A stretch of DNA of 64,000 bases from Candidatus Nitrosopumilus sp. GTDB lineage: Archaea > Thermoproteota > Nitrososphaeria > Nitrososphaerales > Nitrosopumilaceae. Both the position numbers and the translations under genes were made by a program. The DNA is taken from NCBI GenBank assembly GCA_029864335.1, contig JAOTTS010000009.1, positions 1 through 64,000 on the forward strand, written 5' to 3'. A model generated the notes under the pieces. The model saw only the letters and a list, made by a program, of their open reading frames with translations. It made no database searches and was not told the origin of the DNA. How positions within the stretch are numbered: the stretch's first letter is position 1; every line of letters starts with the position of its first letter. This document shows, piece after piece, positions 35,228 to 55,653 of this stretch.

Positions 35228-35596
35228 TTGTTTGATGTTGCAAAAGCATCTAATATCTCAAAGAAATTACTTCAAAAATCATACAGGAGATTAGTTGAGA
35301 ACTTGGAACTTAAATCTAGTACATTCATCCCGACAGATTTCATCACACGATTAGCATCAGATGTAAATGTTCAAGAAAAAACTAGACTCGATGCAATATA
35401 TTTTCTCAAAAAGGCTCAGAGAATGGGAATTATTGTAGGAAGAAACCCTATGTGTATTGCTTCATCTGCCTTGTATTTGGCATGTGTTCTTAATAATGAA
35501 AATATTTCACAGGGAAAAATTGCCAAGGAGGCCAGAACAACCAGTGTTACCGTAAGAAATGGATATCAATACTTGGTGAATAAGTTTGGATCTTGA
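35228..35596 (+). pseudogene. C-terminal half of a TFB (transcription factor B)
   Basis: 122 aa corresponding to the end of the first cyclin repeat and the second cyclin repeat of TFB: ASNISKKLLQKSYRRL, PTDFITRLASDVNV, GRNPMCIASSALYLACV, ISQGKIAKEARTTSVTVRNGYQYL. The zinc ribbon, B-finger and most of cyclin repeat 1 are missing, and it starts at TTG. Probably a remnant, though a stand-alone DNA-binding repeat is possible. A fragment related to the gene at 36504 follows on the other strand. Confidence 0.7.
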
Positions 35597-37653: not shown

Positions 37654-38655
37654 ATGATAACTTTTTCTAGAATGAGAAAAAATCTAATTACTATAAAGAC
37701 GTGTAAAAAATTAATGGATACTGATTCATTGAAACTTTCTGAAAAATGTATTCTATCACGATGTAAAGACGGACCACTGATCACAGATAATATGGCAGGT
37801 GAGTTAATGTGTGGCAGTTGTGGAGTTGTCCTATCTGAAAAAATGGAAGATTATGTACAAGAGTATCGTACTTTTACAAAAGAGGACTATATGCAACAGA
37901 CAAGAACAGGAATGAAATCCACCCTAACCATACATGATATGGGACTTGCCACAAAAATCGGCTCAAAAAATAAGGATGTATCTGGTAAACGATTATCCAG
38001 TAAAATGAATTTTGCATTCAATCGTCTTAGAGTATGGGATGCGAGAAGCAAAATGTATAGCAGAGAGAGGAGTATGCAAAATGCATTTACTCTGCTTGAT
38101 GGCATGGCAGCCAAGCTGGGCCTACCCGAATTCGTATCAGAAAAAGCAGCATATTTTTACAGAAAAATTAAATCAAAAAATCCCAGAACTGGAAAATTCA
38201 CCGAATCATTAATCGCTGCTGCATTATATGCTGCTTGTAGGTCTACAAATACTCCCAGAACATTAAATGATATAGCCCAGGCTGCCAACGTTAAGAAGAA
38301 ACGCCTTCAAAAAAGCTACCGAGATATTGTAAAAAGGCTAGGTCTTAATATTGAACAATATGATCCCATCGAGTTTGTAAGCAGAATTTCAAGTGAGGTT
38401 AGTGCTAGTGAGAAAACTAGAAGATATGCTGTGAAAATTCTGATAAAGGCAAGAAAGACCAGGATATTAACAGGTAAACATCCAATGGGAATGGCAGCTG
38501 CTGCTCTGTACTTTTCAGGCATTCACAACAACGAAGATATTTCCCAGGAAAAGATTTCTGGTGTCTCCGGAGTAACTACTGTCACTATTAGACATGGATA
38601 TCAAACTTTGGTAAAGGGAATTGGCATATCTCCCCTAGAGTCCTTGACAAAATAA
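37654..38655 (+). CDS. tfb: Transcription initiation factor B (TFB)
   Basis: 333 aa (ATG 37714 would give 313). Zinc-ribbon pairs CILSRC and CGSC, B-finger region ending RLRVWDARSK, then two cyclin repeats (FTESLIAAALYAACRSTNTPR and HPMGMAAAALYFSGIHNNED) and the HTH GVTTVTIRHGYQTL. Recruits RNA polymerase to TATA/TBP. One of several TFB-related loci in the window and the only intact one. Confidence 0.93.
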   Translation: MITFSRMRKNLITIKTCKKLMDTDSLKLSEKCILSRCKDGPLITDNMAGELMCGSCGVVLSEKMEDYVQEYRTFTKEDYMQQTRTGMKSTLTIHDMGLATKIGSKNKDVSGKRLSSKMNFAFNRLRVWDARSKMYSRERSMQNAFTLLDGMAAKLGLPEFVSEKAAYFYRKIKSKNPRTGKFTESLIAAALYAACRSTNTPRTLNDIAQAANVKKKRLQKSYRDIVKRLGLNIEQYDPIEFVSRISSEVSASEKTRRYAVKILIKARKTRILTGKHPMGMAAAALYFSGIHNNEDISQEKISGVSGVTTVTIRHGYQTLVKGIGISPLESLTK

Positions 38656-40111: not shown

Positions 40112-40531
40112 ATGGACTTTTCAAGAATACTTGTTGCAATTGATGGGTCTGAATCTGCAAAGAAAGCTTTTACAAAGTCTCTCTTTTTGGCACTCAAGTG
40201 TAACGCCAAATTGGATCTAGTTCATGTAACCCCATGTGAACTTGGGGGCGATAGTGCCACAACTTTTGAGTTAATAGAGCAACTCCAAACAAAAGCAAAA
40301 TTAATTCTTGAGGAATATAGACAGGAAGCCATAAAGAAAAACATACCAATCGAGGTGATGCTAAAACAAGGCGATCCAGCTCAAATTATAATTGAAATTG
40401 CAAATACCCAGAATTACGATCTTATTGTCACTGGAAGCCGCGGTATGAGTACGTTTAAGGAATTACTTCTTGGAAGTGTCACTCTTAAGGTCATACATCA
40501 TGTACACTGTCCAGTCATGGTTGTAAGGTAG
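40112..40531 (+). CDS. Universal stress protein (UspA family)
   Basis: 139 aa. ILVAIDGSESAKKA at the N-terminus, VTGSRGMSTFKELLLGSVT as nucleotide-binding loop. Third type of Usp in the window, with 19206 and 46248. Confidence 0.92.
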   Translation: MDFSRILVAIDGSESAKKAFTKSLFLALKCNAKLDLVHVTPCELGGDSATTFELIEQLQTKAKLILEEYRQEAIKKNIPIEVMLKQGDPAQIIIEIANTQNYDLIVTGSRGMSTFKELLLGSVTLKVIHHVHCPVMVVR

Positions 40532-43219: not shown

Positions 43220-44278
43220 TTATTCTTCTACTATGAATAGACCTATCATTCCTGCATCTGCATGGCCAACAACATGGCAATGGAATAGCCATATGGCGGG
43301 TTTGTCTGGTTTAATAATGAATGATTCGAGTGTTCCTTGTACAAGGGGGAATGTTTGGGAGGTAATCACAGAACCTCTTTCATTTGTACTTGAAATCATT
43401 TTGTTTCCATGTAGATGAAATGAATGGATTTGTTCTCCCAGATTTGTAACGTGAAATTCGACTGTTTCTCCGACCTTTGCTTTGTAGACAGGTAATGTGT
43501 AATTGAATTGCGCAGCAACTCCATCCAGTCCTTTTTCTGCAAAGATTTCTTCAAGAGCTTTTTCTCCACCAGGCACTCCCATTCCATTCATGATATAGTA
43601 TGGTGTGGGGCCTTTTTCCATTCTCTCAACGTCGTGACCTATTTCTGACATTACGATTGGAATGTGTCTGTCAATGTATGGTCTTGGAGGATTTCTTTCA
43701 ATTATGATATTACCATAAAGACCTTGCAAAATATGATCTTTTATTCCAAGACCCTCAGATGCTGCGTGATCATGGAAAAATGTTGTACCCCAAGTATTTA
43801 CATTGTATTCATATGTCCATTCGCCACCTGGTGGAATCATTGAACCGGCACCGACTCCTGTAATCACATTGACTGGGGATCCATCATGTTTAGGATCATA
43901 GTCACTCATATGAGCATGGAAACTGTGAGTCACATCATGATTATTGATTACTTTGACTCGTAATAGATCTCCCTGATTTACCATTAGAGTTGGCGCGGGT
44001 ACTGTTCCGTTGTATGTCCAAGCATGCCAGACAGCAGTATCAGATATTTGAATGTCTGTTTGTTCGATTATCAATGTGTATTCCTTAACTGGTTGTTCTT
44101 CAGCTTCAGCAATTTGTGGTTGTAATTCAGATACACTTTGAGGCTGAACATTAGAGACAGTCTGTGTTTCTGTATTTAGTTCTGGCAAGAGTTGAATGTT
44201 TCCTGTTGCTGCTACAATTAAAAATGCAAGCAAGATTGGTACTCCTATCAGACCAAATTTTTTCTGCATAACCACCAT
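43220..44278 (-). CDS. Two-domain multicopper oxidase
   Basis: 352 aa. Signal/anchor at residues 6-26. Copper ligands: HSFHAHMSDYD, TTFFHDHAA, HSFHLHGNKM and WLFHCHVVGHADAGM, i.e. the HxH pairs and the type 1 HCH-x3-H-x4-M site near the C-terminus. Extracytoplasmic oxidase or nitrite-reductase-like enzyme, common and varied in ammonia-oxidising archaea. A truncated relative lies at 25506. Confidence 0.88.
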   Translation of the reverse strand: MVVMQKKFGLIGVPILLAFLIVAATGNIQLLPELNTETQTVSNVQPQSVSELQPQIAEAEEQPVKEYTLIIEQTDIQISDTAVWHAWTYNGTVPAPTLMVNQGDLLRVKVINNHDVTHSFHAHMSDYDPKHDGSPVNVITGVGAGSMIPPGGEWTYEYNVNTWGTTFFHDHAASEGLGIKDHILQGLYGNIIIERNPPRPYIDRHIPIVMSEIGHDVERMEKGPTPYYIMNGMGVPGGEKALEEIFAEKGLDGVAAQFNYTLPVYKAKVGETVEFHVTNLGEQIHSFHLHGNKMISSTNERGSVITSQTFPLVQGTLESFIIKPDKPAIWLFHCHVVGHADAGMIGLFIVEE

Positions 44279-44443: not shown

Positions 44444-45276
44444 TTATTTTGAAAATGCCAAAGCTTTGACGATGTCTGTTTTGCTAAGAATTCCAGCAAT
44501 TGATTCATTTCCATCCAATACTATCAAACTGCTAACATTGTTTTCTAAAATCAGTTTACATGCATTAGATAAACTCTGATTGAACTTGATTGTGATTAGT
44601 CCTTTAGTCATGACGTCTCTTTCTAGTGAAATATTTCCAAATCCTTCCTCTGAAAGAAACCCCTTCCTGATTTGATCTAAAGTGGTATGTTCTGAATCTT
44701 CCTCCTCATCACCCAACTCGATAGAAATTCTAAACAGATTCCTAAATGAAATCACGCCCACAGGATTCTCATTTTGATCCTTTACAATTACTCTTGATAC
44801 CTTTCTTTCTAACCTCTTTCTTACAACCTTGAACAGTGGTGCTGCAGTATGCGTATTGATATAATCATGCGTCATATGATCTATAACTCTGCTTTCATCT
44901 GAGATGTTATTCAAATAATATTTTACAAGATCAGTTTTAGTAAAAATACCTTTAGTTCTGCATCAGAACCTATCGTAAGAGAACTAACTCCATTCTCAAT
45001 CATAGTTTTTGCAGATTTTTCTGGAGATTGTGATTCATCCACAAATAAAATCGGCTTCATGATTTTTGTAATAGGAATATCATCTAATCCTTGTCTAGTT
45101 GTCTCAGAAAATAAGAATAAGCCAACATCTTTTTCTGTAACAATGCCTATGGGTTTTCCATCCTCCACAACAATTAATCTGCTGAGATTGTATTCCAATA
45201 ATTTTTTGATTAACTCTGAAATACTAGATCTTTTTAAAATTGAAATTGGTTTTTTTGAAATATTTGAAAGTGACAT
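44444..45276 (-). pseudogene. CBS-domain protein split by a one-base frameshift
   Basis: Two frames abut: the first (44923-45276, 117 aa) ends AELKVFLLKLIL, the second (to 44444) reads GIFTKTDLVKYYL directly across the same point. One extra G in the AAAGG run at about 44949-44953 would give ELKGIFTKTDL and a continuous protein of about 277 aa with four CBS motifs, the size of the intact relative at 15055. The rest shows no decay. Confidence 0.7.
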
Positions 45277-45395: not shown

Positions 45396-45518
45396 TTAAT
45401 TTGAGATTGACTGCTTTGTTAAATGGATATTTGTATTATTTTTTTGTATATCGTTTTCAGAAATTTTAACATCATTAAAACCAAGTTTTTTCCCATAATC
45501 AAAACAGGTTTTCTCCAT
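45396..45518 (-). CDS. Possible 40-aa protein
   Basis: ATG-to-TAA frame (begins MEKTCFDYGKKLGFND). Residue composition is plausible, but there is no ribosome site, homologue or coupling. Low support. Confidence 0.25.
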   Translation of the reverse strand: MEKTCFDYGKKLGFNDVKISENDIQKNNTNIHLTKQSISN

Positions 45519-45772
45519 ATGAATCTCATATCATAATGTTATTTATGACATTTCAAACAAATCATAACATTTCAAATCTCTTAGTTATCGTCTATTTTCT
45601 CTCACAAATGTGGGACATTTTATTTTCGTTCTTTATCGTTAAAAATAGTGTCCCCTTTCATGAAGGAATTTAGACGGTGTCTTGAGATTAACGGTATTGT
45701 TTGATAATCTTGTATAGGATTATGAAATTCAAATATCATCAGATGATTAATCGATTATTCTCAGAATAAAAA

Positions 45773-46009
45773 TTATTTATGAAAATCAGATTTATTGAAC
45801 TTTAACATGTGTTCTTTTATCATTATTTTAGAACCTTTTTTCATATAGTAAGGGATCTTTTTTTCTGAAAATAATCGGACGTTTATTTTTGCGTTATCTT
45901 CTATAGCTTCGTAAATATCTAAATCAAAATTATCTTCATTGATTTGTTTCCATTTATCCTCCAACTCGCAATAAGCAAAATTGATGTATGTAGTAGTTGG
46001 ATTAGCCAT
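45773..46009 (-). CDS. Small hypothetical protein
   Basis: 78 aa, mixed strand/helix composition, acidic centre (NEDNFDLDIYEAIEDNAK) and basic end (YYMKKGSKIMIKEHML). No motif recognised. Isolated gene. Confidence 0.5.
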   Translation of the reverse strand: MANPTTTYINFAYCELEDKWKQINEDNFDLDIYEAIEDNAKINVRLFSEKKIPYYMKKGSKIMIKEHMLKFNKSDFHK

Positions 46010-46247
46010 AATTATTTGAGTTTTGCATTACCCTTTAATTATTAAGTACAATATCTCTTTTGAGATTAAGAATTGTAGTTATATAGAGGATCATTTCGAT
46101 GAACAAAAAAGAACGGGTTGAGTTATGGTTACCATGCAACAACTGAACATGTCAATCAAATGGATCAGTAGTTAGTGTATGTAGTACTGGATCTTTTTGG
46201 AATTGCTCATATCTTAGGATAAATTATACAACAATTAGAAATTAGAT

Positions 46248-46670
46248 TCATTTAACTACCAATACCTGAATTTTGGATTTGTGTATTATATAATGAGAAA
46301 CACTTCCCAAGAAAAACTCCTTGACTGAGCCCATTCCTCTTGCACCAATAACGATCAAGTCAAAGTTTTGTTTTTGAGCCAATTTGACAATATAGTCGCC
46401 TGGTTTTTGAAACTCTGTAATCTTGGCAGTAAATTTAACTCCGTTTTTTTCTGCAAGTTTTTTAGCTGAATCTAGGAATGTGTCATCTGCGGTTATCTTT
46501 TCAGCATACATCGGTTTCATTCTTCCAAATATTGGAGGAGTTGGCCTTACATACACTGCCTTGATTTCAGCCCCAAGTGGTTTAGCAAGTGCAATCGCAC
46601 TGTTCAAACCTTTCATTGAATTTTTAGAACCATCCAGAGGCACAAGAATTTTTTTTATTTGATCTACCAT
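46248..46670 (-). CDS. Universal stress protein (UspA family)
   Basis: 140 aa. ILVPLDGSKNSMKGL and VIGARGMGSVKEFFLGSVS. Typical ATP-binding Usp monomer. Confidence 0.93.
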   Translation of the reverse strand: MVDQIKKILVPLDGSKNSMKGLNSAIALAKPLGAEIKAVYVRPTPPIFGRMKPMYAEKITADDTFLDSAKKLAEKNGVKFTAKITEFQKPGDYIVKLAQKQNFDLIVIGARGMGSVKEFFLGSVSHYIIHKSKIQVLVVK

Positions 46671-46947
46671 GATTGAACTCGGATAATATTATTAAAAGAG
46701 ATTTTTTTGATTATCAATCTTGGTTTTCATATTTAGCACAGACATATTTTGTTTTTATTTTTTAGAAAAACAAAAAGAGATATCACATGGCAGCAAGAAG
46801 TAAAATAATGATAGGTCTCAATAAATAATATTACAAAAATAAATGAGAATTTAAACTATAATTAATCAAAATTTTACTTCCCTATGAGTCACATCAGTAA
46901 TTATTGTCTGAAATTATGACATCATTTGTTTTAATCAAATATTCTTA

Positions 46948-47151
46948 TTATCTCACCCTAAGTAAATCATGTTCTGCCAGATCATCAACTATTAACTGCT
47001 CAGCTTTGTTTAATTCTGAGTGGATCTCTGAAATCTTCTGCATTATCACTGGGTAACTTTTTTCCTCCTCAACCATATGTATTGCAGCTGCCACATCAGT
47101 TTTTACTGCTTGTAGTTTTTCTGCTACTTCTGGCAATTTGTGATGAACCAT
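46948..47151 (-). CDS. Small helical protein resembling CsoR/FrmR (DUF156)
   Basis: 67 aa predicted as three helices (PEVAEKLQAVKTDVAAAIHM, YPVIMQKISEIHSELNKAEQL, VDDLAEHDLL). The arrangement resembles the DUF156 fold of metal or aldehyde-sensing repressors, but the Cys metal ligand of CsoR is absent. Could be a divergent sensor or an unrelated bundle. Confidence 0.45.
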   Translation of the reverse strand: MVHHKLPEVAEKLQAVKTDVAAAIHMVEEEKSYPVIMQKISEIHSELNKAEQLIVDDLAEHDLLRVR

Positions 47152-47333
47152 AATAAATTTGGCAAAACATTGTATTTAATCCAGTCATACAATAACATAA
47201 AAATTCGTTTAATATGATGACAAAAACTGAATATTGTCAATATTCTTTTAGCAGTTCTGTATCCTCCTTAATCATCTGCTGCTAGATTTCCCATAAAGTA
47301 AGTTTACTACACAAAATCTGATTTTGCTTCAAG

Positions 47334-47531
47334 TTATTTTATAATCCTTAGCTCATAATATTGACAATCAATTGAATTATTTTGATTTTTGTTGTTATTG
47401 GTTCCATTTCGTTTTTCACAATACTTTTCTGCCTTATCCATTGTGGCAAAAACCATAGGCGGTGTCATCATTTTACCATCGTAACAAGTAGCAATTACAA
47501 CATAGACGATACGAGTTAGTTTATCTGTCAT
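47334..47531 (-). CDS. Tandem paralogue 3 (aromatic/Cys small protein)
   Basis: 65 aa, the most divergent of the three: YVVIATCYDG, VFATMDKAEKYCEKRNG, CQYYELRII. Matches the other two in the order strand, KK/DKA-x-C, and YY/KE-EL end. ATG overlaps the upstream stop (ATGA at 47528-47531). Confidence 0.65.
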   Translation of the reverse strand: MTDKLTRIVYVVIATCYDGKMMTPPMVFATMDKAEKYCEKRNGTNNNKNQNNSIDCQYYELRIIK

Positions 47532-47701
47532 TGAAAAAGTTCAACTTCCTTATAGTACCATAATCGTGAAGGCAAGCCTATGTTTTCATTTTTCTTATCA
47601 CACCATTTGTCAGCTTTCTTTTTACTAAAGAAAACTGGACCAACATCTTCGGAATTTCCACCAGCCTGTAAGCATACATAACATTTCTGATTGATTGTCA
47701 T
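47528..47701 (-). CDS. Tandem paralogue 2 (aromatic/Cys small protein)
   Basis: 57 aa from ATG 47701, which overlaps the upstream stop as ATGA and is therefore preferred over ATG 47734. KCYVCLQAGG, EDVGPVFFSKKKADKWCDKKN, RLWYYKEVEL. Close in pattern to paralogue 1. Confidence 0.7.
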   Translation of the reverse strand: MTINQKCYVCLQAGGNSEDVGPVFFSKKKADKWCDKKNENIGLPSRLWYYKEVELFQ

Positions 47702-47889
47702 CGTAACTCGATCTCCTTTAGATACCATTCCCATGCAGGACCTAACTTATTGTCTTTGTTTTTCACCTTGCACCATTTCCCCTCTTCTTTTTTAATCAAA
47801 AATGCAGGACCTACATCCATAAATTCGCCATGAGGGGCATTTAGGGCCATATAACATTTTGATGAACTGTTTGTTTTCAAATCAAACAC
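47698..47889 (-). CDS. Tandem paralogue 1 (aromatic/Cys small protein)
   Basis: 63 aa: KCYMALNAPHG, MDVGPAFLIKKEEGKWCKVKN, WEWYLKEIEL. Shared core with paralogue 2: KCY, DVGP-F, KK, KWC-KN, W-Y-KE-EL. First of three genes joined by ATGA overlaps. Function and family unknown; one invariant Cys in each WC/YC. Confidence 0.65.
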   Translation of the reverse strand: MFDLKTNSSSKCYMALNAPHGEFMDVGPAFLIKKEEGKWCKVKNKDNKLGPAWEWYLKEIELR

Positions 47890-47940
47890 TCTAATCCTTT
47901 TTTTACGTTGTTGTGCAATCCTTGGTGATGCTATATGACA

Positions 47941-48198
47941 TCACTTCCTATATGTCGACATAATACTCTGCTTTTTATTTTCATCAAGAAAACCCATAAC
48001 AGTTTTGGAAAATTTTTTTAGTTCTTCAACAAACTTTTCTATCTCACTATGCAAGCCTTCACTTCTTGAGGCATGTGATTCTTTTTTGGCAGTCTGCTGT
48101 GAGTAAAATCCTATATGTGTTACTGAGTTTAGGCAATATCCTAATTTTTGATTATCATTTTGATTAATTGCTTCAATCTCTTTTGAATTCTTGACCTT
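47941..48198 (-). CDS. Coding-like frame without a standard start, downstream of the RAM protein
   Basis: Open from the TAA at 48199-48201 to the TGA at 47941. Residues look real: KLGYCLNSVTHIGFYSQQ, then HSEIEKFVEELKKFSKTVMG and DENKKQSIMS, with a helix rich in E/K. No ATG, GTG or TTG lies before the plausible beginning, so it may start at ATT, be reached by frameshift from the RAM gene it overlaps, or be a pseudogene. Confidence 0.4.
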   Translation of the reverse strand, partial: KVKNSKEIEAINQNDNQKLGYCLNSVTHIGFYSQQTAKKESHASRSEGLHSEIEKFVEELKKFSKTVMGFLDENKKQSIMSTYRK

Positions 48199-48424
48199 TT
48201 ATTCCCATAACGGTAATTGTTGATATGATGTCAGGTAATTTACGTATCTGCCAAGTAATTGCTTCTCTTAATGCATCTGCTGAATCTGACACAACTTTGG
48301 CAACAATATCATAGGCCCCAAAAGTTCCATGAATCTCTTTAACACACAAAATATTTTTTAGCTCATCAATGATTTCTTCTTCTTTGCCTAGTATGCAGTT
48401 GATGAGAACATATGCCGTAGCCAT
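48173..48424 (-). CDS. Stand-alone RAM (Lrp/AsnC ligand-binding) protein
   Basis: 83 aa, RAM domain only: TAYVLINCILGKEEEIIDEL, HGTFGAYDIVAKV, ITVMGIKG. No DNA-binding HTH. Such proteins bind amino acids and may modify full Lrp regulators. The zinc-ribbon microgene ends 2 nt upstream, so the two are likely co-translated; compare the fused version at 50489. Confidence 0.85.
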   Translation of the reverse strand: MATAYVLINCILGKEEEIIDELKNILCVKEIHGTFGAYDIVAKVVSDSADALREAITWQIRKLPDIISTITVMGIKGQEFKRD

Positions 48425-48426
48425 TA

Positions 48427-48546
48427 CTATACCAGCTCATATGGGCTGACCCATCCCCCACAAGAACGACAAATCAGCATGCCATCTTCATCCTCATAGC
48501 TTTCAGATCCTGGTGGACATTCACATTTGGATATAACAACATCCAT
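48427..48546 (-). CDS. Zinc-ribbon-like microprotein
   Basis: 39 aa: KCECPPGSESYEDEDG, then CRSCGGWVSPYELV. Paralogue of 35810-35917 (shared CxCPP...DG...C-SCGGW). Ends 2 nt before the ATG of the RAM gene. Confidence 0.65.
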   Translation of the reverse strand: MDVVISKCECPPGSESYEDEDGMLICRSCGGWVSPYELV

Positions 48547-48907
48547 GCTTAATTTTATCAATAATAGTTATTATAATACCAACATAATTCAAAGTAAAGT
48601 TATTTGAAATTATAATAGATTTTTGTACAAATTTTAATAAAAACATGAGAGACAGTTAGTTTGCTTTGCAGACAAATCATGAGTATAAAATCTGGTCTGA
48701 ATAACTTGTTCCTGCTTGGTATGACCGTTATGACTTTGGATTCACGGTGGGATTTACAGTTTTGTTGACTAGTTAAATTACAGATTTAAATGGAAAAATT
48801 CAATTATTTTCAACAGATAGGATTTGTGAAATGCTTGCTTATTTTTAATCATAACACAAACAAGGTTACACTTTTAGTATGATCAAGAAGATGTCCATCA
48901 ATTTGTC
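48547..48907. other. Gap upstream of the HD hydrolase
   Basis: 361 bp. A short hydrophobic frame from ATG 48679 (MSIKSGLNNLFLLGMTVMT) would run on as a membrane segment only if one base were inserted, so it may be a relic. Otherwise nothing recognised. Confidence 0.3.
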
Positions 48908-49474
48908 ATGAATAAAAACCCAAAACTAGAACTTGCTGAAACGTTAGCAAGAAAAAAACACATGGGTCAATTAAGAAAGGATGGGATAACTCCTTTCTCA
49001 GAACATCTAGAAAGTGTAGTTGATACGTTAAAACAACTAGGGATAAAAGATCAAGAGGTTTTATGCGCCGGATGGCTTCATGATTCAATAGAGAATACGG
49101 ATACTGACTATGATGAGCTAAGTCAGATTTTTGGAAAAACAGTTGCTTTACTTGTTGTATCATTGACAAAAGATAAATCCCTTCCAAAAAAACAAAGGGA
49201 GTTACAATATGTCAAGATTTTAAAAAACTCCCCTCTAGATGCTAAGATGATTAAGCTTTGTGATGTCTCCTCTAACCTTAATGCTATTCACAAGTCTGGT
49301 CTTTCAAATGAAATGAAGGCAAAAAAGGTAAGGCAGATTAATAATTACCTTGATGTTATTAAAAACGATATATTTGAAAATATTTCATGCTATTCAAATG
49401 TTGAATCCATACTAACTGGAATAAATAATATCCTATTCCATTACGGGTTGCAACCAGCAAAAGCAAATATCTGA
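48908..49474 (+). CDS. HD-domain hydrolase (SpoT/MESH1-like)
   Basis: 188 aa. HMGQLRKDGITPFSEHL, GWLHDSIENTDTDYDEL and KMIKLCDVSSNLNAI match the HD phosphohydrolase domain of RelA/SpoT and MESH1, including H, HD and the later D. No synthetase or TGS domain. Possibly hydrolyses ppGpp-like nucleotides or another phosphate ester. Confidence 0.82.
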   Translation: MNKNPKLELAETLARKKHMGQLRKDGITPFSEHLESVVDTLKQLGIKDQEVLCAGWLHDSIENTDTDYDELSQIFGKTVALLVVSLTKDKSLPKKQRELQYVKILKNSPLDAKMIKLCDVSSNLNAIHKSGLSNEMKAKKVRQINNYLDVIKNDIFENISCYSNVESILTGINNILFHYGLQPAKANI

Positions 49475-49506
49475 TGAATTTGATTATAAATTAAGAGTTT
49501 GATAAA

Positions 49507-49821
49507 ATGAGACCGATTAAGTGCTGGCAAATAATAATTAGAATGAGAAGAAATGACAAGACGTCTAAAAAACGCACATTTGAGGTGGTTTTAGATTTCT
49601 TAAAAAAGAATAAAATTTCAGGAGCCACTGTCTGGACTGGCGTTGACGGATACGGAAAGAGAGGAGATGCAAAATTAAGGATTGAAGGACTTTTGATGAA
49701 TAACCCATTGTTAATTGAAATAATAGATAAAAGATCAAAACTACAGCCACTGTTGCCGGACATCAAGCAGATTGTGGACGATGAGGGTCTTGTTACTTTT
49801 AGTGAGGTCAATGCACTTTAA
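49507..49821 (+). CDS. DUF190 family (PII-like) protein
   Basis: 104 aa. FEVVLDFLKKNKISGATVWTG, GYGKRGDAKLRIEG and IEIIDKRSKLQPLLPDI match DUF190, a ferredoxin-like fold related to PII signal proteins. Could sense a nucleotide. Follows the HD gene by 32 nt. Confidence 0.78.
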   Translation: MRPIKCWQIIIRMRRNDKTSKKRTFEVVLDFLKKNKISGATVWTGVDGYGKRGDAKLRIEGLLMNNPLLIEIIDKRSKLQPLLPDIKQIVDDEGLVTFSEVNAL

Positions 49822-49996
49822 ACAGAATTAGTTCCTTTGGAATTGACAGACTGCTTTCCAAATAAAATTAATTGGCATCCTTCCAAAAATTACTCCTATT
49901 CAAAATCTTTACCATTAACACATTCCAAATCATCAAATAGTAGTTTTTTTCTAATTAAAATTTCAAACAAATAACCAATCTACAAAAATTACAAAA

Positions 49997-50203
49997 TCAA
50001 TTGTCCTTTAATTCCACACAAGACATCAATTTTTCTCCTTTAGCCTCCCATATTGTTTGTTCCTCAATTTCATAGAGATAGGCCTTCTCTATTTCCTCAT
50101 ACTCTCTTTCTTCCTTGCTATGTAATTCTAGTTTCTTTAAGGCTTCAAAGTGATAATCCTCTAAAACTTTTCCATGTTTTGGACATTGTATTACCCATGC
50201 CAT
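49997..50203 (-). CDS. Small hypothetical protein
   Basis: 68 aa, Glu-rich and helical after a CPKHGK start (KLELHSKEEREYEEIEKAYL). Single Cys/His pair near the N-terminus. Unrecognised. Confidence 0.5.
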   Translation of the reverse strand: MAWVIQCPKHGKVLEDYHFEALKKLELHSKEEREYEEIEKAYLYEIEEQTIWEAKGEKLMSCVELKDN

Positions 50204-50348
50204 ATTAACTCAGTTTTATTTGTCCTTTGATAAATATAAGTAATATTTGATTAAAACTATAAATTTATAAAAATATTCATGGATATTCTATATTTATTTT
50301 AAGAAATACTATAAAATACTTCAAATATAATCTCTATGAATCTATGAT

Positions 50349-50492
50349 ATGGCAATGCTAGAGAAGACACGAAAAAGAGATTTGGATGATAAAAAAATTG
50401 AAAAATTTCATGCAAAGAAAACAAAATTTTATAACAACTATGAAATGATTTTTGAAGAATCTCTCAGAGACGCAATGGGTCAGGGTTGGTGA
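50349..50492 (+). CDS. Small basic helical protein coupled to RAM-zinc gene
   Basis: 47 aa, Lys-rich (EKTRKRDLDDKKIEKFHAKK) and ending AMGQGW. Its TGA overlaps the GTG start of the next gene as GTGA, the best evidence that it is translated. Confidence 0.5.
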   Translation: MAMLEKTRKRDLDDKKIEKFHAKKTKFYNNYEMIFEESLRDAMGQGW

Positions 50493-50941
50493 CAGTGAAA
50501 GAAAATAATCAGAAAATGGTGGGAGCACATATTCTGATAAATTGTGGAATTGATGAAAAAGAAGCACTGCTTGACAGGATAAGCAATCTTGAAAATGTAG
50601 CAGAGATAAATAATGTTTCAGGAAGTTATGGCATAATCACAAAAATTAATGCAAACAATACAAAATCATTAATGACAACTATTAGAGATGAGTTAGGTAA
50701 GATGATAAACATTGATTCTACAATCACATTGGTTCATACGGATTTACAAAATCCACATAACATGACAGGTAAAATAAATCTGATTTCCAATAAAAAGGAT
50801 AGTCATGATTCTACAGATTATGACTATACATGTTGTGATCAATGTGGTTTGCTGTTACCTCACTGTCATTGTACTTGTCCATATTGTGGAGAAAGAGACC
50901 GTTGTGAGTGTGCTCTTTTTGATGCAGCAACAGGTGGATAA
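50489..50941 (+). CDS. RAM domain fused to a Cys/His-rich C-terminus
   Basis: 150 aa from GTG 50489. First part: RAM-type ligand-binding domain (GAHILINCGIDEKEALLDRI, VSGSYGIITKI). The last 40 residues hold CCDQCG, HCHCTCPYCGERDRCEC, at least nine Cys, a dense metal site. The combination of RAM and zinc module repeats what is encoded as two genes at 48173-48546. Eight nt before the oxidoreductase subunit. Confidence 0.75.
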   Translation: MTVKENNQKMVGAHILINCGIDEKEALLDRISNLENVAEINNVSGSYGIITKINANNTKSLMTTIRDELGKMINIDSTITLVHTDLQNPHNMTGKINLISNKKDSHDSTDYDYTCCDQCGLLLPHCHCTCPYCGERDRCECALFDAATGG

Positions 50942-53192: not shown

Positions 53193-54019
53193 TCAAATCA
53201 GTTTAACATGCTGTATGTATTCTTTGTAGCGATTACGAATAGTCACTCCTGTTATTCCGTAAACTTTTGAAATCTTTTGTTGAGATAAATTTAAACCTGT
53301 TTTGATGCCTGCCATGTAGATTACAGTGGCTGCAACTGCATCGGGTTTTTTTCCTGCAGTTAATTTTTTCTCCTTTAGGGTATCGAAAATGTTTATTGCT
53401 TCCCGTTTTGTATTCTCAGGTATTTCTAAATTATTTGCAATCTTTACAATACATTTGATTGGATCTGGTACCGATACAGTAAGCCTAAGATTTTGAAACA
53501 ACATTCTATAGTTTTTTGCAATTGATCTTCTATGTTCTTGAAGATTTTCTGAAATGTCCATGATCGTCCGTGTGGCATCCATCTCTCTGCATGCCACATA
53601 CACACATGCTCCAACTACTCCATTAATGCTTCTGCCACGAATTAATTGGGCTCTAGCAGCTTTTCTATAGAGATAAGATGATCTTTCCATAATTGCATCT
53701 GACAAACCTAATTTCTCTCTTAGTTTTTCCATCTCAGATAAGGCGGTTCTTAGATTTCGTTCCGAAGAATTTTTTGTTCGACTTCTTGCATCCCATAATC
53801 TCTTATCCGGATATTACTGGCATTTTGTAATGCCAGTGCATCCAAAAATAGTACGGATGTCTGTCCATTTTTGTATCTAAGCAAAGTTTTTCTATAACGC
53901 TCCACTTTATTCTTTGAGAGGTAAATGTCATCAGAACTTTTATCGTTCATATTTTGTAATCCTCCATTTGTGTAAAAGGAGCATTTTTTCTTCATTATGC
54001 GCCGCAGACTTGAACACAT
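53193..54019 (-). pseudogene. Degenerate TFB without zinc ribbon
   Basis: The C-terminal part (53193-53732) has both cyclin repeats: IRGRSINGVVGACVYVACREM, AGKKPDAVAATVIYMAGI and the HTH GITGVTIRNRYKEY. In the same frame upstream, DKRLWDARSRTKNSSERNLR is clear TFB sequence, but a TAA lies before it and there is no start codon. A second frame (53750-54019) supplies the N-terminal part without any CxxC zinc ribbon. Broken paralogue, or an unusual short TFB starting at ATG 53732. Confidence 0.6.
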
Positions 54020-54708: not shown

Positions 54709-55653
54709 TTATTCTAATTGGTACAAATCTAATTTGCAATCAATACTGCAATCTGGAGTAGACCAATCAAATGTGTCTTCCTGTGGAATCATTCCAAGTG
54801 GATCGTAGTTGTCAAATTTTGTCATTCCTTGAATTGATGATAACATTACAACTTTGGACTCATCAGAAGTTGAACTCATATCTATCTGTGAATTACTATC
54901 ATTTAGAATTCCACTTGTAAGGTTAGTAATTGAATTTATTACTCCTACTGGGATATTGCTGCCTCCAACTACATACAACATAGAACGTTTAACTGAATTT
55001 GGTGGTGCATTACCGTATAGCATTTTTAGTGAATCTCTTAGGGAGTCTTCAATATGTTGTCCATCTTTACTTGTTGTGAGGATGTTTGTTTCATTAGATA
55101 TTTCTGATGAACCAAGTGATTCTACTACATGCATAATTGCTGAATTTGCAATATCATAGCATGTTTTAGGACTTAAATCTGGATTACTTTCAAGCAATGA
55201 GTCATTATCTAATACAACTGTACATTCTGAATTTTCTCTGATTCTTTTTAGAGATACACCTGAATTGAAAATTCTATCCTTTTCATATTTGAAAGGCATG
55301 ATTGCAAATGAAACTAGTCCCTTGTCTTTACACATTTCAGAGACTACTGGAGCAATGGCTGAGCCTGCTTTGCCTGCCAAGTTACTCATTAGAATAACTG
55401 TGGAATATCCTGAAATCTTTGATTTTATCTCATCTGCTACATTGTAAGTTGAGCCTCTGATTAATTGAACAGATGGATTAACTACTCCATTTGTAGAAAC
55501 ATGAACTGATGGATTTCCTGAAGAGAAATCTTTTTCATCATTACTAATTAGTAGGCAATCTGAATTAAGAGAATTTTTTGCTTTAATTGCTAATTTTGAG
55601 CCTACGCCACCCAAGCCTATTACTAAAATTGGCTCCTTTACTTGAAAACTCAT
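54709..55653 (-). CDS. Divergent FtsZ/tubulin-family protein
   Basis: 314 aa. N-terminal VIGLGGVGSKLAIKA is a Rossmann-type Gly loop; MSNLAGKAGSAIAPVVSEMC stands where FtsZ has GGGTGTG; then FAIMPFKYEKDRIFNSGVSLKRI and VVLDNDSLL follow the FtsZ order. The degenerate tubulin signature fits reports that thaumarchaeal FtsZ is atypical while Cdv proteins divide the cell. Probably a structural or regulatory relative; GTP binding uncertain. Confidence 0.75.
   Translation of the reverse strand: MSFQVKEPILVIGLGGVGSKLAIKAKNSLNSDCLLISNDEKDFSSGNPSVHVSTNGVVNPSVQLIRGSTYNVADEIKSKISGYSTVILMSNLAGKAGSAIAPVVSEMCKDKGLVSFAIMPFKYEKDRIFNSGVSLKRIRENSECTVVLDNDSLLESNPDLSPKTCYDIANSAIMHVVESLGSSEISNETNILTTSKDGQHIEDSLRDSLKMLYGNAPPNSVKRSMLYVVGGSNIPVGVINSITNLTSGILNDSNSQIDMSSTSDESKVVMLSSIQGMTKFDNYDPLGMIPQEDTFDWSTPDCSIDCKLDLYQLE

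Follow-up and report, generated by a model that had tools for sequence, protein, structure and literature searches.

Three very short genes lie end to end, with overlapping stop and start codons, in the genome of a Candidatus Nitrosopumilus sp., and the locus raises the question of what these proteins are and whether they act together. A first-pass annotation of the window (the whole stretch of 64,000 nucleotides that was analyzed) had described them as three tandem paralogues of 57–65 aa that share several motifs, belong to no recognized family and may form a hetero-oligomer. The ORFs, which span 47334–47889, proved to be real, measuring 63, 57 and 65 aa on the minus strand, and the array most probably consists of copies of a small DUF7336-like domain that was duplicated locally.

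Organization of the Array

The array has the following features:

47698..47889, minus strand: gene 1, 63 aa, GTG start; DUF7336-like by its paralogy to gene 2
47528..47701, minus strand: gene 2, 57 aa, ATG start; predicted beta-beta-alpha-beta fold
47334..47531, minus strand: gene 3, 65 aa, ATG start; sub-threshold match to DUF7336
47698..47701, minus strand: 4-base ATGA in which the gene 1 stop and the gene 2 start overlap, read from the sequence
47528..47531, minus strand: 4-base ATGA in which the gene 2 stop and the gene 3 start overlap, read from the sequence

The earlier statement that each ATG overlaps the previous stop is correct for genes 2 and 3, but not for gene 1, which has no suitable ATG and starts with GTG. 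A Shine–Dalgarno-like AAGGAG ends 11 bases upstream of the gene 2 ATG and AAAGGATTAGA is located directly 5′ of the gene 1 GTG; both may serve as ribosome-binding sites. Translation of the three genes is most likely coupled through the four-base overlaps. Coupling of this kind would link translation without setting stoichiometry, however, and the proposal that the three proteins are made in a fixed ratio was not upheld.

Genes 1 and 2 Are Conserved Paralogues and Gene 3 Is More Distant

Paralogy between genes 1 and 2 is clear from their sequences. They share 48% identity (26 of 54 positions, E 6e-14), with an alignment score that was reached by none of 2000 shuffles (z 18.8), and have in common the motifs KCY, DVGP.F, KWC..KN and WY.KE.EL. 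Across 56 codons, the first, second and third codon positions are identical in 34, 38 and 24 cases, respectively, and in the core of the alignment pS is 0.74 and pN 0.33, corresponding to a dN of 0.43 and a dS of about 3, near saturation. Silent sites are close to saturation but the amino acids have been retained, and therefore both genes are conserved as proteins. This substitution pattern bears directly on the notion that the array might be chance ORFs without a product. Though their shortness, the 34% GC content of the DNA and the absence of a close homologue outside this genome would fit such an origin, it is contradicted by the 48% identity of the gene 1 and gene 2 proteins alongside saturated synonymous sites, by the exactness of the overlaps and by the confident gene 2 fold (see below), and we regard it as extremely improbable.

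Gene 3 is a distant relative of gene 2, with a similarity that is weak but above chance (27% identity over 37 positions, E 2e-4, z 6.7, a score that 0 of 2000 shuffles reach), while its relation to gene 1 is marginal (E 22, with the score reached by 67 of 2000 shuffles). KCY, DVGP-F and KE-EL are missing from gene 3, which carries VYVV, PPMVF, AEKYC and YYEL instead. Thus, the motifs described as common to all three proteins hold for genes 1 and 2, whereas gene 3 is a remote copy in which most of the listed motifs are absent. The divergence of gene 3, far greater than that between genes 1 and 2, also argues against the idea that the products form an obligate hetero-trimer or other hetero-oligomer in fixed ratio. 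Tandem paralogues with ATGA overlaps are indeed a usual layout of coupled subunits, but there are also solitary DUF7336-like proteins, for example in Bacillus phage Troll and on another contig of this genome, and an obligate assembly of this kind is improbable.

Sequence Searches Point to DUF7336

No Pfam, PHROG, NCBIfam or PADLOC model passes its cut-off for any of the three proteins, and genes 1 and 2 are recognized by none of them. The PADLOC search gave no match to known anti-phage defence, and a sequence search of the PDB returned nothing useful. Matches of gene 1 to SH3 (E 0.045) and Harpin (E 0.17) were rejected as chance. Gene 3, by contrast, aligns with the Pfam family DUF7336 (PF24024) at 20.9 bits (E 3.3e-4, positions 2–36 of 60), under the curated cut-off of 25 bits; it also matches PHROG 3002 weakly (E 0.17). 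In hhalign, genes 1 and 2 compared with a DUF7336 set gave a probability of 31% and P 5e-4, a P value for a single comparison between very shallow profiles, and hhalign probabilities overall, likewise from very shallow profiles, ranged from 15% to 31%.

Because the curated cut-off was tested and the array proteins fall short of it (20.9 bits for gene 3, and no match for either of the other two), we do not file them as DUF7336 members; they are probably distant relatives of that family. The absence of a known family, as originally reported, therefore stands insofar as no model passes its cut-off, but it is qualified by the sub-threshold match of gene 3 and by the resemblance of the gene 2 model to DUF7336-annotated phage proteins. 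The profile search that had been suggested as a check revealed no well-described family, DUF7336 itself having no described function and going unmentioned in the literature searched.

The Predicted Fold Resembles That of Small Phage Proteins

The AlphaFold2 model of gene 2, built from only three sequences, has a strand-strand-helix-strand (EEHE) arrangement with a mean pLDDT of 82.6. The gene 3 model shows the same order of elements at a pLDDT of 69.3, with one poorly predicted loop. Fold quality had been proposed as a further check, and for single chains the gene 2 prediction is not poor while that of gene 3 is moderate.

Foldseek comparison of the gene 2 model with viral predicted structures retrieved many phage proteins of 52–75 aa at probability 1.00, with TM scores of about 0.8 and rmsd values of 1.3–1.7. 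The best E-values lie between 4e-3 and 2e-2, and such modest values (4e-3 and up) are expected because the domain is so short. Three of the top 30 viral matches are named DUF7336. The gene 2 model superimposes on U5PY09 with TM scores of 0.80/0.81 and an rmsd of 1.7, and on A0A2I7RWF5 with TM scores of 0.74/0.80; the DUF7336-annotated matches include proteins of Bacillus phage Spock and Vibrio phage 1.245.O. Gene 2 and the annotated members of DUF7336 thus share a predicted fold, at E-values of 0.016–0.08 that are supportive rather than proof. The gene 3 model gave weaker matches, with a DUF7336 protein again among them. Against the PDB, Foldseek found no credible match (best E 3). VIA-align scores for ClpS (Z 5.4), SbtB (5.1), AcrIIC5 (4.2), AcrIF9 (3.2) and Had1 (2.0) are no higher than a common arrangement would give, and were not taken as homology. 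The beta-beta-alpha-beta fold is simple and may arise by convergence.

The Array Was Seen in One Genome Only, and the Domain Occurs Sporadically in the Genus

Close relatives of genes 1–3 were sought in the same genome and in 95 genus, 150 family, 300 class and 398 phylum genomes, yielding isolated weak matches only (E 0.0025–0.09); several of these, in a partial check, have in-frame stops or lie inside unrelated ORFs. Scans of genome contigs, viral contigs and phages, which reach close relatives only, likewise gave no relatives of the array genes. Thus, across the 95 genus genomes and the family, class and phylum samples, the array is seen only in this genome.

A fourth, unlinked copy of the domain is present on contig C9 of the same genome (L016 1504–1707), encoding a 67-aa DUF7336 protein that scores 25.7–26 bits, above the cut-off. 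This copy lies next to a phosphoesterase-like ORF and several short ORFs that resemble zinc ribbons, and has relatives at ≥80% identity in three congeners (G274, G349 and G223). In all, 5 of 95 congeners contain proteins above the DUF7336 cut-off; the highest copy number is that of G348, a genome with 8% contamination. This sporadic occurrence within the genus suggests that the domain was gained by transfer with mobile DNA.

The Neighborhood Resembles an Accessory Region

The following genes surround the array:

40112–40531: USP gene
43220–44278: multicopper oxidase
44444–45276: CBS proteins
46248–46670: USP gene
46948–47151, minus strand: CsoR-like protein, 67 aa, weak match (22.5 bits against a cut-off of 22.8)
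48173–48424: Lrp/AsnC ligand-binding domain
48427–48561: zinc ribbon
48908–49474, plus strand: HD-domain RelA/SpoT-like protein, 188 aa, E 1.1e-18
49507–49821: DUF190

The order of genes in this neighborhood is kept in none of the eight congener regions examined. UspA, CBS, zinc-ribbon and multicopper oxidase genes are reported as common cargo in a survey of integrated elements of Thaumarchaeota (PMC6563490), and the surroundings of the array agree with an accessory region. The genome contains 11 integrase (PF00589) matches, with none on the array contig, though an element cut at a contig end could be missed in an assembly of 58 contigs. With no integrase on the contig and core genes (ribosomal L31e and a TFB) within 7 kb of the array, mobility of the locus is not established.

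The same surroundings could be read in another way, namely that the array is a host-encoded regulatory or stress module expressed together with its USP, CBS, Lrp/AsnC and zinc-ribbon neighbors, its fold having arisen by convergence rather than by descent from phage DUF7336. The regulatory and stress functions of these neighbors and the core genes that follow fit such a module. Against this reading stand the DUF7336 sequence match of gene 3, the fourth DUF7336 copy in the genome, the unconserved gene order in the eight congener regions and the absence of the array from the other 94 congeners. We consider this reading unlikely, if less so than an obligate hetero-oligomer.

Several other features of the region were observed. 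The CsoR/metal-sensitive repressor-like protein has no cysteine, and its gene lies downstream of the array at a distance of about 180 bases. The HD-domain protein shares about 50% identity with proteins of two congeners and is possibly a small archaeal (p)ppGpp hydrolase. Three TFIIB-repeat proteins are encoded within 19 kb (35228–35596, 37654–38655 and 53193–53732), one of them apparently short at 122 aa with a single repeat, and a 314-aa protein on the minus strand at 54709–55653 has a partial Tubulin/FtsZ GTPase match. No Rfam family was detected in 45500–50500.

Discussion

The data are best explained by a polycistronic set of one beta-beta-alpha-beta domain, DUF7336-like and widespread as tailed-phage proteins of 50–75 aa. 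Genes 1 and 2 would descend from a duplication old enough for silent sites to be near saturation, gene 3 would be a more distant copy, and the overlaps would couple translation of successive genes. The domain itself may have been acquired with mobile DNA. We hold the identity of the domain and its local duplication to be likely; that judgment does not extend to function.

On function, binding is more plausible than catalysis for a 60-residue domain made up of one helix and a three-stranded sheet. Our preferred reading, put forward tentatively and with low confidence, makes each protein a small adaptor or inhibitor that would use its beta-sheet to pair with itself, with its paralogues or with a target protein. 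The proteins might then tune a host or invader machine, with the copies differing in target. A bolder version, in which coupled and diversified DUF7336-like adaptors hetero-oligomerize and engage different partners, for example as a counter-defence or host-takeover kit in an archaeal chromosome, is a long shot; were it true, it would give DUF7336-type proteins their first function.

The observation in the first-pass annotation is real and mostly correct, but its claim to novelty is reduced by the resemblance of the proteins to a type of small phage protein that is obscure yet numerous. By itself the array answers no open question, and as a find it is modest and not surprising. Many small phage genes encode DUF7336-like proteins, for which we found no described function, and a compact three-copy array in an archaeon offers a convenient setting for asking if these domains pair with each other and what they bind.

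Comparison with Known Systems

PHROG 3002, also of unknown function, matches the copy on contig C9 (E 1.2e-5) and, weakly, gene 3, and differs in that the array genes have no significant match to it. Small uncharacterized proteins of tailed phages (Bacillus phages Anthos, Troll and Flapjack, and Mycobacterium phage Tonenili) have a similar predicted fold, with TM scores of about 0.8 over 51–57 columns, but show 12–30% identity and have no known function. In Troll, the one phage checked in this respect, a single DUF7336 match lies within a run of small hypothetical genes. From PF24024 the array proteins differ in that gene 3 scores under the cut-off and genes 1 and 2 lack a sequence match, and in their KWC and DVGP motifs and tandem overlapping layout. 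They resemble PF24024 in size, in the beta-beta-alpha-beta order, in a YVV-type first strand and in a helix that begins after an F-S/T/A-T turn with A-E-K, and the gene 2 model superimposes on the annotated phage proteins.
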